From Pseudoxanthomonas beigongshangi (GTDB lineage Bacteria > Pseudomonadota > Gammaproteobacteria > Xanthomonadales > Xanthomonadaceae), in assembly GCF_016820515.1 (NCBI RefSeq), contig NZ_JADHDV010000003.1, positions 78,562-142,561 on the forward strand: a stretch of 64,000 nt of DNA, in the 5' to 3' direction. Of the stretch, positions 61,172-64,000 are shown one piece after another. The notes beneath the pieces were generated by a model. That model saw only the letters and a program-made list of their open reading frames with translations. It was not told where the DNA came from and ran no database searches. The number at the start of each line of letters is the position of its first letter. Within the stretch, counting starts at the first letter, position 1. Position numbers and translations under genes: made by a program.

Positions 61172-61200
61172 TTGCATCTTCAAAACAACCGGCGTATCGT
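61172..61200 (+). promoter_or_regulatory. Candidate sigma-70 promoter for the leader RNA
   Basis: TTGCAT (61172-61177), 17-base spacer, TATCGT (61195-61200) in a locally AT-rich stretch. A transcript would start near 61207 and end at the terminator at 61440. Confidence 0.5.
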
Positions 61201-61246: not shown

Positions 61247-61357
61247 ATGACCCGCCTTCCCGCCAACACGAACCTGTTTGCCCTGTGGCCCTGCCACGGC
61301 GCGGACGCGTGCGTCCTGTTGCGTGGCGTCGAAGGCGCGCGGTACCTGGATCACTAA
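61247..61357 (+). CDS. Possible 36-residue leader peptide
   Basis: ATG at 61247 to TAA at 61355-61357, reading MTRLPANTNLFALWPCHGAD and ending RYLDH. It is followed directly by two hairpins and a terminator, the arrangement of attenuator leaders. No codon run is notable (six leucines, one tryptophan). No real structural gene follows within 900 bases. Confidence 0.35.
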   Translation: MTRLPANTNLFALWPCHGADACVLLRGVEGARYLDH

Positions 61358-61373
61358 TCACGGCTGACTCCCT

Positions 61374-61447
61374 GGGAGATCGGCCACCCCGATCTCCCGA
61401 GGCACGCGAACGCCCTCGGGTCGCAAGTCCCGGGGGCGTTTTGTTTT
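61374..61447 (+). terminator. Double hairpin ending in an intrinsic terminator
   Basis: Stem one is GGGAGATCGG / CCGATCTCCC (61374-61383, 61389-61398). Stem two is AACGCCCTCGGG / CCCGGGGGCGTT (61409-61420, 61429-61440), with one G-T pair, followed by TTGTTTTT. It is a strong terminator on the plus strand. Confidence 0.85.
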
Positions 61448-61789
61448 TGGCGTTCGCGGAGGATGCGCATGCATCGAGCAGGTTTCGTTCCATCCGACAG
61501 GGAAACTTCTGGTTTCCGCCCTGGAGCATCCGGGTAGCGCGCCTGCGCGCCCCGAGGCAGGGGCGCGGCTGCAACCGGCGCATGTGCGCTGCGTGGTGAT
61601 GCTCCGACGCGAGCGGCGTTCGGATGGAACAACGAAATGGGCGCCATGCGCCCGCACGGATTGCCGGTTGGCGACAGCCGGCAATGCGGAACATCTTCGA
61701 ACACGTCTCAGCGGTACGGGCTTGTGTCCCGTCCGGTGCGTGCGGCGCTGCCGTGGCGTATGCCGAAACGTGGGAACGGGTGTTCCACT

Positions 61790-61859
61790 TGACGATGGCC
61801 GAGGGGTCAGGCATCGGCGGAAACGCCGACTACACCGGTTCGATTCCGGGACGTCACCA
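61790..61859 (+). ncRNA. tRNA-like structure 1
   Basis: Acceptor-like TGACG (61790) / CGTCA (61852-61856) is followed by an encoded CCA (61857-61859). The D-like stem is CCGA (61799-61802) / TCGG (61814-61817). A hairpin in the anticodon position (GGCGGAAACGCC) follows. The T-arm is CCGG-TTCGATT-CCGG (61835-61849) with the T-loop sequence of real tRNAs. The acceptor is only about 5 bp and there is no U33. It is not a normal tRNA; a Y-RNA-type or other tRNA mimic fits better. Confidence 0.5.
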
Positions 61860-61931
61860 CTGGATAGCTCAGTATGGTTAGAGCATCGGTTTGATACCGA
61901 GAGTCGCGGGTTCGATTCCCGCTCCAACACA
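61860..61931 (+). ncRNA. tRNA-like structure 2
   Basis: D-arm GCTC-agtatggtta-GAGC (61867-61884) and T-arm GCGGG-TTCGATT-CCCGC (61906-61922) are perfect tRNA arms. The anticodon-type arm TCGG-TTTGATA-CCGA (61886-61900) reads UGA at the anticodon position. The acceptor pairs only TGGA (61861-61864) with TCCA (61923-61926), and there is no variable long arm as serine tRNAs need. This looks like a tRNA mimic or decayed tRNA in tandem with structure 1. Confidence 0.5.
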
Positions 61932-62302
61932 TGACCTGTCACGTCATGACATCGGGACGCAAGTCCCTTCCAGGACACGCCCGGTGCGGCGTGCCGAACC
62001 ATGCAAGGGAATGCGTGGAGACGCACGACGCAGCGGGGCCGGTGCCGGAACCGAGCCCTGGCGGCGGACGTTCCCCATCGATGGCTGACGGCAGGATGCC
62101 GGCCGCGCATCGGTGACGGAATCTCCGCCGGCAGCGCCGGACTCCCGCTCCGGTCGCGTCCACGGGCGTTTCCGCCTTTTTCAGATGGCGCCGCATCGCG
62201 CGGCGTCGTCAACACTTCGGCACGGCAACCGTTCCCCCGTGCGGAAACAGCCATCCGGGAACGGACCACCAGAGCCAACAACCACATAAGGAGACATGTG
62301 CC

Positions 62303-63424
62303 ATGTTCTGGACCAAGAAGGTCGTGATCGGTGACGGCGAGCGCGGCCTGGTGTATCGCAACCGTCAGCTCGAGCGTGTGCTCGAGCCGGGCGTCCACAA
62401 GTTCTTCGACCCACGCGGCGAACTGGGCATCACCGTGCACGCCATCGCGCGGCCGGAGTACGCCGGCAACGATGCCGACGTGCTGATCGCGCGCATGGAC
62501 ATGCTGGCGCCGTACTTCACCCTGGCCGACATCGGCGAGCAGGAAGTCGGCCTGGTATCGAAGAACGGCAAGCTGGAAGACGTCATCCTGCCGGGCGGCC
62601 GCAAGCTGTACTGGAAGGGCCTGGTGCGGGTGGACGTGCGCAAGGTCGCGCTGGACGGCCTGCCGGAAGTCGATGCCGCCGTGGCCCGTCGTCTGCGCCA
62701 GCTCGGCGCATTGTCGAAGGTGGCCGTGGTCGCCGACGTGCCTGCCGAGTTCACCGGCCTGGTGTTCGTCGACGGCAAGCTGTCGAAGACGCTGGCGCCG
62801 GGCGCCTACGCCTTCTGGAATTTCCAGAAGAACGTGGTCGTGGACATCGTCGACTTGCGCGTGCAGGCGGTCGAGGTCTCGGGCCAGGAACTGCTGACCC
62901 GCGACAAGGTGTCCCTGCGCGTGAACCTGGCCGCGAGCACCCGCGTCGTCGACGTGGTGGCCGCGCGCACCAAGGTGGCGAAGATCGGCGATCACGTCTA
63001 CCGTGAGCTGCAGTACGGCCTGCGCAAGGCGGTTTCCGCCAAGACGCTGGACGAACTGCTGGGCGACAAGGCGTCGCTGGACGCCGACATCTTCGCCCAC
63101 GTGCGCGGCCAGATGACCGGGCTGGGCATCGAGGTGCTCGGCGTGGGCGTCAAGGACGTGATCCTGCCGGGCGAGATGAAGGACATCCTCAACAGCGTGG
63201 TCCAGGCCGAGAAGTCGGCCCAGGCCAACGTGATCCGCCGCCGCGAGGAGGCGAACGCGACCCGTTCGTTGCTCAACACGGCCAAGCTGATCGAGGACAG
63301 CTCGGTGTTGATGCGCCTCAAGGAGCTCGAGGCGTTGGAGAAGATCACGGAGAAGATCGACAAGCTGACCGTGTTCGGCGGCCTGGATGGCGTCATGAAG
63401 CAGCTGGTCAGTTTGAAGCAGTAG
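62303..63424 (+). CDS. Slipin/SPFH (band 7) family protein with three N-terminal repeats
   Basis: 373 residues. The SPFH domain spans about 175-320 (DIVDLRVQAVEVSGQELLTR, VSLRVNLAASTRVVD, and DVILPGEMKDILNSVVQAEK), followed by a helical tail with RREEANATRSLLNTAKLIED. Before it, three similar units of the form GLVxxxGKLxxxLxPGxxxFW occur at 13-35, 80-104 and 149-172. No membrane helix is seen, unlike standard slipins. An AAGGAGA site lies 9 bases before the ATG. Slipins of this kind are found beside RNA-repair genes (RtcB, Rsr) in related bacteria, as I recall; the following start fits this. Confidence 0.88.
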   Translation: MFWTKKVVIGDGERGLVYRNRQLERVLEPGVHKFFDPRGELGITVHAIARPEYAGNDADVLIARMDMLAPYFTLADIGEQEVGLVSKNGKLEDVILPGGRKLYWKGLVRVDVRKVALDGLPEVDAAVARRLRQLGALSKVAVVADVPAEFTGLVFVDGKLSKTLAPGAYAFWNFQKNVVVDIVDLRVQAVEVSGQELLTRDKVSLRVNLAASTRVVDVVAARTKVAKIGDHVYRELQYGLRKAVSAKTLDELLGDKASLDADIFAHVRGQMTGLGIEVLGVGVKDVILPGEMKDILNSVVQAEKSAQANVIRRREEANATRSLLNTAKLIEDSSVLMRLKELEALEKITEKIDKLTVFGGLDGVMKQLVSLKQ

Positions 63425-63977
63425 CAGCACGGCTCCCTCCCCTCGCAAGCGGGGAGGGGGTTTCACCATTCGACTCCTTCTCCAAGCATGGGAAAAGAAG
63501 GGCAACGCCGGCTCCTCCCCCGCTTGCGGGGGAGGGTTGGGGGGGAAAGCCGGAGCAGGTGATGTCGGTTGAGCGAGGCAAGCATCGAGCGTTGTGATGC
63601 CTGCTCGATGGATACCTGGTGTCTTCGTTCGCCCCCATCCCAACCTTCCCCCGCACGCGGGGGAAGGGGCTTTCACCTTGCAGCTCCTGTTCCGCGCACG
63701 GGGAAGGATCCGCACTACAGGCTCCCTCCCCCGCGCGCGGGGGAGGGCTGGGGTGGGGGAAAACCGAAGCAGGTGATGCCGGTTGAACGAGGCAAGCATC
63801 GAGCGTTGTGATGCCTGCTCGATGGATACCCACTGTCTTCGTTCGCCCCCATCCCAACCTTCCCCCGCACGGGGGGAAAGGGGCTTTTCATTACATCGGT
63901 CCTTTCCGTACACGGAGAGAAGGGCTAGTCCCTTCCCATTCACCGGAGAGGGCGTTTCATTCTTCAAGGAAGAGATC
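63425..63977. repeat. Tandem ~214-bp repeat region with G-rich palindromes
   Basis: The block GCAGGTGATG...GGCAAGCATCGAGCGTTG (63555 on) recurs at 63769, a period of 214 bases, including the ends CCCCATCCCAACCTTCCCCC and GGGGAAGGGGCTTTCA. Short mirror palindromes of CCCTCCCC / GGGGAGGG occur between the copies. There are no true genes; the region separates the slipin gene from the last start codon. Confidence 0.7.
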
Positions 63978-64000
63978 ATGAATACTTCAAACTTTGAATT
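63978..64000 (+). CDS. Start of a gene, possibly RNA ligase RtcB (truncated by window edge)
   Basis: ATG at 63978 after an AAGGAAGA site encodes MNTSNFE and an eighth codon starting TT. RtcB proteins often begin M-N-x-F/Y-E-L-L, which is compatible, and the slipin and tRNA-like RNAs before it are the expected company. Only seven residues are visible, so the call is tentative. Confidence 0.3.

Follow-up and report, generated by a model that had tools for sequence, protein, structure and literature searches.

What RNA do two tRNA-like elements belong to when they stand in tandem in front of a slipin gene and an RNA ligase gene, and what might that RNA do? The question is raised by a stretch of 64,000 nucleotides (nt) from Pseudoxanthomonas beigongshangi (GCF_016820515.1, NZ_JADHDV010000003.1, positions 78,562-142,561, forward strand), hereafter the window. 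Here, an initial annotation had described two tandem tRNA-like RNAs before a slipin gene and a possible rtcB start, and had likened them to the Y RNAs of bacterial RNA-repair loci. Both elements are present where it had put them, with slipin downstream, and it is close to certain from the comparison of related loci that they are parts of a conserved structured RNA. We tentatively propose, at somewhat less than an even chance, that this conserved predicted RNA of ~530 nt serves as a bait and sensor to which ribonucleases attacking the anticodon loops of tRNAs respond. The two elements are as follows:

61790..61859, + strand: tRNA-like element 1, with an encoded CCA at its end (sequence, comparison of loci)
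61861..61926, + strand: tRNA-like element 2, with a hypervariable anticodon loop and an acceptor of 4 base pairs (bp) (ARAGORN, Rfam tRNA model, comparison of loci)

In the window, element 1 has a 5-bp acceptor (TGACG/CGTCA), a T arm reading CCGG-TTCGATT-CCGG, and an anticodon-like arm of 6 bp with a 4-nt loop (TCGGCG-GAAA-CGCCGA), and its CCA is encoded at 61857-61859, as the initial annotation had read it. Element 2 starts one base after element 1 and combines ordinary D and T arms with a 4-bp acceptor (TGGA/TCCA) and an anticodon arm, TCGGT-TTGAT-ACCGA, that carries a 5-nt loop; the short acceptors and abnormal anticodon arms first reported are thereby borne out for both elements. ARAGORN calls element 2 alone, as tRNA-Ser(TGA) at 61858-61930, and the Rfam tRNA model likewise recognises element 2 alone (45.5 bits, E 2.9e-8), with no covariance-model match to element 1 in the window. 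Among seven other loci searched, five (L014, L052, L062, L072, and L074) have tRNA-model matches for both elements at the same place.

These loci belong to a sample of 80 slipin loci (L003-L082), the best 80 of 132 relatives and drawn for the most part from Pseudoxanthomonas, Luteimonas, Lysobacter, Xanthomonas, Dyella, and Rhodanobacter, to which the window is added in all counts over 81 loci. The element pair is found in 75 of the 80 loci and in the window, with the T arms 64-82 nt apart and roughly 320-715 nt before slipin; the five misses comprise three contig ends (L023, L046, and L056) and two loci with one element each (L065 and L077). Recurrence at this spacing argues that the elements are not chance occurrences. 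Judging from these sequences, the tandem form, thought unusual for a Y RNA at first, is the rule in slipin loci, and the pair accounts for only a portion of a larger fold, likewise conserved, whose predicted parts in the window are:

61655..62183, + strand: large structured RNA of ~530 nt, transcript and ends inferred (74-locus alignment, fold z -5.6)
61660..61685, + strand: 5'-side hairpin ATTGCCGGTTGGCGACAGCCGGCAAT (sequence, alignment, RNAalifold)
61686..61788, + strand: 5' core domain, GGTGCGN...GCGTATGCC, the basis of model R1 (RNAalifold, R1 matches)
61930..61948, + strand: anticodon-arm-like hairpin CATGAC-CTGTCAC-GTCATG (loop parse of 76 loci)
61954..61967, + strand: hairpin with a GNRA-type loop, GGGAC-GCAA-GTCCC (72 of 76 loci)
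61973..61983, + strand: 5' strand of a long-range helix closing the 3' domain (pairing across 71 loci)
62163..62173, + strand: 3' strand of the long-range helix, with a T-rich tail to 62181 (pairing across loci)

Conservation in the alignment of 74 of the 81 loci (L023, L046, L049, L056, L065, L067, and L077 having been excluded beforehand) reaches far beyond the two elements, and RNAalifold returns a coherent fold that runs, from 5' to 3', through the hairpin, the core, elements 1 and 2, the anticodon-arm-like hairpin, the GNRA-type hairpin, and the helix-closed 3' domain. The 529-nt stretch of the window folds better than 100 of 100 shuffles (z -5.6). The core domain contains the nearly fixed strings GGTGCGC and GCGTATGCC, and for 12 of its 24 pairs there is at least one locus in which both partners have changed (RNAalifold, 48 loci). 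Similarly, the long-range helix, most commonly formed by GGAAACGCCCC pairing with GGGGCGTTTCC, has compensated forms that include GGAAGCGCCCC/GGGGCGCTTCC, GGAACCGCTCC/GGGGCGGTTCC, and GGAAACACCCC/GGGGTGTTTCC. With the 5' strand fixed, 11 uninterrupted pairs form in 44 of 71 loci and 9-11 pairs in 56 (five of the 76 loci could not be set up for this count), while 15 loci have 4-6 pairs, mostly because of indels or variant strands; the window's own helix has one mismatch, and a first brute-force helix search favoured another stretch in 31 of 81 loci, the window among them. The hairpin 3' of element 2 resembles a free anticodon arm, with a 7-nt loop parsed in 45 of 76 loci, in which C32 occurs in 42, U33 in 42, A37 in 44, and the triplet GTC in 24. 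In the window, this loop is CTGTCAC, which we take to be the loop of tRNA-Asp. Only tRNA among the Rfam families reached its cut-off on the RNA, other matches in the window being weak and at chance level; GOLLD, ROOL, and the other large RNAs of Rfam gave no covariance-model match over cut-off. Our literature search found no published description of the slipin-linked ~530-nt RNA, although a prior mention is possible.

The pattern of change within this fold bears on whether the elements could serve translation. Across the 76 loci, pairing holds in all 380 cells of the T stem of element 2 and in 378 of the 380 cells of its anticodon stem, for which 27 different stems are in use; shuffled partners give at most 273, a comparison that favours the real set because the parser took the best stem per locus. 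The T and D arms of element 2 are almost fixed, and yet there are 60 different anticodon loops, with 31 triplets among 65 seven-nt loops (a parser-dependent number: one parse gives 50 of 76 such loops, another 65 of 76), and three of these triplets (L011, L053, and L079) would read stop codons. Its acceptor measures 4 bp in 53 of 76 loci and 7 bp in 4. For element 1, whose automatic parse is less reliable and misread the window's own copy (described above from the sequence), we counted 6-bp acceptors in 37 of 76 loci, 7-bp acceptors in 16, and 59 different loops of 3-11 nt. The loop of element 2 also changes quickly between close relatives: in 12 non-overlapping pairs of close loci, 19 of 76 anticodon-loop columns differ, compared with 443 of 5266 in the remaining region (Fisher p 1.6e-5, optimistic because indel columns are counted singly and there are only 12 pairs), 35 of 721 in the core, 0 of 120 in the T stem, and 0 of 110 in the D stem.

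If the elements were tRNA genes, ordinary or in decay, or else tRNA-shaped signals for trimming the slipin-rtcB mRNA, this would explain why ARAGORN and the Rfam tRNA model recognise many of them and why 54 of 76 loci have a CCA no more than 11 nt past the T arm of element 1. Such genes sit poorly with elements that lie inside a larger conserved fold, and the 60 loops, the 31 triplets including three that would read stops, and the 4-bp acceptor all count against decoding; the window lacks both a 7-bp acceptor (it has 5 and 4 bp) and a 7-nt loop with a conserved anticodon. Nor would decay leave arms so strongly conserved and covarying. Decoding or decaying tRNA genes were rejected on acceptor length, loop diversity, and covariation; it is very likely, as far as sequence comparison can tell, that the elements do not decode, and this family of explanations taken together is highly improbable.

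The genes that follow the RNA place it in the setting of RNA repair that had been suggested at the outset, with slipin followed by rtcB:

62303..63424, + strand: slipin (Band_7/SPFH) gene, 373 amino acids (domain search, structure comparison)
63978..64000, + strand: rtcB start, one of two copies at a scaffold join (the intact gene is at L002:4871-6091, right of the window)

The slipin protein carries a Band_7 domain (E 1.3e-30) and the RtcB protein matches PF01139 (E 1.8e-126). In L002, a 19-kb stretch around the window's own locus that reaches right of the window, a single N at L002:4563 separates two copies, window 63675-64000 and L002:4564 onward, which agree at 321 of 326 bases. Because it is repeated on both sides of this N, the window's rtcB start at 63978 is an assembly artefact; the initial annotation was right to expect rtcB, which is intact farther along, and had seen its scaffold-join copy. 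In 74 of the 80 loci, rtcB lies 3' of slipin on the same strand. Of the six loci in which it was not found, three (L051, L060, and L076) have fewer than 200 bases left and three (L052, L054, and L074) have 4 kb. Beyond the 80 loci, G280 (L092) has another open frame 3' of slipin, with no close rtcB relative within the stretch read, and G207 has an additional tRNA-Leu(TAG)-like element, its CCA encoded, directly 3' of slipin (L093:2915-2993).

Slipin has a stomatin fold, with a fold match to the shoulder and last repeat of the major vault protein, the first two slipin repeats having been barely probed by VIA. The RNA could be pictured as scaffold or guest of a vault-like cage built by a three-repeat slipin, its tRNA-like domains serving as handles for proteins or processing while the loops drift. 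This reading gives the best account of slipin as the constant neighbour; we regard it as unlikely, though far from negligible, and it can hold together with the bait and sensor proposal.

How RtcB is accompanied differs between genomes. RtcB is present in 21 of 25 genomes of the genus, 19 of which have a strong match to the RNA (E below 1e-18); the two others are G018 and G002, the latter with its rtcB 367 bases away from the start of a contig. None of the four genomes without RtcB (G006, G009, G010, and G024) has a strong RNA match, and the weak R1 matches in G018 (E 1.7e-4) and G006 (3.2e-4) adjoin neither slipin nor T arms. RtcR exceeds its cut-off in five of 41 genomes, none of which has a strong RNA match; where the two could be compared, in 40 genomes, strong RNA matches (21) and RtcR (5) never occur together. 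The RNA is also present in two genomes from other families of the order (E 3e-9 and 4e-8), neither with an RtcR that exceeds its cut-off, and the window's own genome has no RtcR domain. The congener G018, by comparison, encodes RtcR together with RtcB and RtcA, as well as a protein carrying a Ro60 vWA domain (E 2.2e-17) whose TROVE match, at 21 bits, is just under the cut-off of 23. The contrast between this RtcR-type locus and the slipin-type loci suggests that RtcB loci of two types exist within one genus and that a different tRNA-mimicking RNA goes with each.

The same contrast bears on the Y RNA label of the initial annotation, under which the elements would be YrlA-type Y RNAs bound by Rsr. 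In favour of this label are their resemblance to tRNAs and their place near rtcB, a setting in which Y RNAs are found. However, while the tRNA model recognised element 2, the YrlA model (RF02553, cut-off 69) is absent from the window matches at E up to 5. Of seven other slipin-type loci, six give it 25.5-30.4 bits and L044 has no listed match; L123 gives 34 bits, with no match listed in four further loci. The model does recognise RNA in the congener's RtcR-type locus (L096), with 72 bits, over cut-off, followed by 62.2 and by 29.7, the last no better than in slipin-type loci; the control L097 gives 50.4 bits. Relatives of the congener's RtcR, Ro60-type protein, and RtcA were absent from the 80 loci (flanks up to 4 kb; other Rsr types and the rest of the genomes unsearched) and from the 19 kb around the window's own locus, so that of rtcB, rsr, and rtcR, the genes named at first as ones to look for on the right, rtcB was found there and relatives of RtcR and the Ro60-type protein were not. 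With scores below cut-off in slipin-type loci and above it in the congener, the Y RNA reading was rejected, and we give it very little credence.

The region upstream of the RNA offers a candidate for the control of its expression:

61172..61200, + strand: predicted sigma70-like promoter TTGCAT-N17-TATCGT (pattern across loci)
61247..61357, + strand: leader open reading frame (ORF), 36 codons and stop (ORF pattern across loci)
61374..61398, + strand: hairpin GGGAGATCGG/CCGATCTCCC between leader ORF and terminator (one pattern, 62 of 81 loci)
61408..61448, + strand: intrinsic-terminator-like, attenuator-like site (terminator-like site in 78 of 81 loci)

Three of the 78 terminator-like sites (L049, L051, and L065) are evidently non-homologous. 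In all 74 loci with a recognised terminator (the seven of 81 without one are excluded from these counts), we find the pattern TTG[CA]-N18-21-TANNNT, where shuffles expect 2.8, and an ORF of 33-50 codons whose end lies 49-64 nt upstream of the terminator core, where 2.4 are expected, both expectations being optimistic because ORF length, stop-terminator range, and promoter pattern were set after viewing the data. A stricter consensus scan of the window gave no promoter at 61172..61200. The hairpin GGGAGATCGG/CCGATCTCCC is single copy in the genome at up to 3 mismatches, and a pairing CCCGAGG/CCTCGGG is possible. Leader ORF, hairpin, and intrinsic terminator follow one another in the fixed order of a ribosome-controlled attenuator. 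A conserved leader peptide found no support: the 272 substitutions in 21 of 22 listed pairs fall on the three codon positions as 92, 98, and 82, without bias, and the ORF is conserved as an open frame only. Given the lack of protein-level constraint, translation itself, and not the peptide, would matter if the leader ORF is translated. A switch in which the first attenuator arm would pair with the beginning of the leader ORF was persuasive when judged from the window, but the pairing showed no excess over shuffles and the idea was rejected. Sigma54-like TGGCAC-type sites stand upstream of slipin in four of 17 distant loci (L123, L128, L129, and L130) and in one of the 81 Xanthomonadales-type loci searched, hinting at a change of control.

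The RNA might, alternatively, be a cis-acting leader only, which would regulate slipin-rtcB while its tRNA-like domains sense a tRNA-binding factor. Its position between the terminator-like site and the slipin start, on the same strand, fits this reading, as does the T-rich stretch that follows the long-range helix in 56 of 71 loci. Yet the RNA greatly exceeds the size that such a role requires, distant loci have anywhere from one to three tRNA-like domains, and control seems already placed upstream, at the terminator; we consider a leader function alone improbable.

Under the bait and sensor proposal, disturbed translation would cause the leader region to let polymerase pass the terminator, and the RNA, slipin, and RtcB would then be made together. 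The RNA would present tRNA-shaped loops to anticodon nucleases, either sparing real tRNAs or reporting cleavage, RtcB would rejoin the cut RNA, and slipin may form a shell or platform that holds RNA and ligase together. We favour this proposal because it explains the tRNA shape, the fast-changing nuclease target, the RNA ligase as neighbour, and the absence of RtcR. The recurrence of the element pair, the covarying helices, rtcB 3' of slipin, the tie between RtcB and strong RNA matches in the genus, and the conserved leader ORF and promoter-like site also speak for it. So do Hughes et al. 2020 (PMC7790460), who connect an RtcR-type operon with tRNA cleavage and suggest YrlA as a possible competitive inhibitor of the nuclease.

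Several observations weigh against it, in addition to the optimistic p-value noted above. The loop variability could reflect relaxed constraint or a mutable site, and the D loop of element 2 varies too (12 of 96 columns in the 12 close pairs). The loops of element 1 are often 4 nt long (21 of 76), which makes them poor anticodon mimics, and the loop of the third, anticodon-arm-like hairpin is rather fixed across loci. In the leader, 72 synonymous stand against 200 nonsynonymous changes, leaving the peptide without protein-level constraint, and pairing between attenuator arm and ORF over 72 loci has a mean z of 0.04, with no pairing found that explains a switch. No rtcB was found in the 4 kb downstream of slipin at L052, L054, and L074, and an E. 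coli slipin adjoins a nucleotidyltransferase and a zeta toxin family gene instead of rtcB. Hughes et al., in the part available, did not detect fragments of YrlA. Finally, the RNA could be structural.

Related RNAs, as recognised from core strings and T arms, also precede slipin in other gammaproteobacterial families and in Burkholderia and Photobacterium. In a class-wide sample, 16 of 274 genomes contain slipin at E up to 1e-20. By inspection, 10 of the 15 genomes other than the window's own have two or three tandem T arms shortly before slipin (L113, L114, L115, L117-L121, L123 with three, and L126); in many of these the second element is reduced and lacks a clear D arm. Single T arms are found in L116, as seen in L092, and in L124; the pair in L122 lies ~1.3 kb away, and L125 and L127 are doubtful. 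ARAGORN makes at least one tRNA call upstream in 10 of the 15 distant loci. G033 and G038 combine slipin with the core and two elements, of which the second is reduced in G033, and rtcB lies upstream in G038; in the latter genome, two further tRNA matches (Asp and Lys; L102:4690-4841) stand ~60-110 bases before rtcB, besides the pair before slipin. In G273 (L120), an open frame ending before the RNA looks, by eye, like the end of RtcA, which suggests that the RNA can also follow rtcA. The class scan with R1, which scored ten candidates per genome, found two members; the slipin search led to many more, which marks R1 as insensitive to distant members. R1 matches in G279 (L095) and G281 (L094), with no slipin beside them, were set aside as probably due to chance; G279 has slipin with tRNA-like elements on another contig (L115).

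Nine plasmid records with slipin were matched, and four were examined. Burkholderia and Photobacterium records show core strings and two T arms before slipin, and a Subdoligranulum plasmid (Clostridia) has the same features with no ARAGORN call beside slipin, so a related RNA is probably encoded there as well. The E. coli locus, with one T-arm string, is doubtful. Slipin relatives were found neither in viral_contigs nor, at E 1e-20, in phage records, and on this basis a phage origin was rejected. Two loci deserve separate description. In E. coli (L128/L132), slipin follows an unannotated gap of 529 bases that contains the T-arm string, and 1419 of 5426 E. coli genomes cover at least 80 per cent of a 3.2-kb query taken from this locus. 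In L118, slipin lies inside a tRNA array, with 13 ARAGORN tRNAs in 4.1 kb before, in front of, and after the gene.

Combining these threads, one might envisage a widespread ribonucleoprotein for tRNA damage, with a slipin shell and a resident ornate RNA whose tandem, rapidly evolving tRNA mimics are sacrificed to anticodon nucleases and resealed by RtcB, loops that diversify in an arms race with these nucleases, and, in Xanthomonadales, a translation-sensing attenuator in place of the RtcR alarm; as a whole, this picture is a doubtful one. RtcB is widespread in bacteria, its natural substrates and partners being largely unclear, and the RNA described here is a concrete and testable candidate substrate or sensor. 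If true, a class of large noncoding RNA would be added that is new and has members in probably two phyla, and SPFH proteins would be linked to RNA repair.

Among known systems, YrlA and its rsr-yrlBA-rtcBA operon resemble the slipin-type locus in having noncoding RNAs that mimic tRNAs beside rtcB, in Salmonella as a tandem of two (in the available part of PMC7790460), and YrlA shares a tRNA-like domain with this RNA. The RNA differs in its length of ~530 nt, its slipin partner, its hypervariable anticodon loops, and its rejection by the YrlA model, and no Rsr-type or RtcR gene was found beside it. GOLLD and ROOL are likewise large, structured, tRNA-associated RNAs, with tRNAs sometimes in the GOLLD linker; they are described as prophage- or phage-encoded (both points from the part of PMC12286853 available), unlike this RNA, which lacks an Rfam match of that kind and whose slipin was found neither in phage records at E 1e-20 nor in viral_contigs. 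The RtcR-controlled operon has RtcB RNA ligase in common with the present locus, and the Pseudomonas aeruginosa rtc locus also has an SPFH gene (in the available part of PMC13086221). Here, no RtcR, RtcA, or Rsr was found beside the RNA, and a promoter-like site and leader terminator stand in their place.

Two further likenesses lie outside RNA repair. The eukaryotic vault also has an SPFH-type shoulder domain preceded by beta repeats, a likeness of fold only, and it has a noncoding vault RNA as companion. Phage tRNAs with altered anticodon loops escape anticodon nucleases; they share with the present elements a change of the anticodon loop directed against tRNA cutters and differ from them in that they decode, which the elements here most likely do not.
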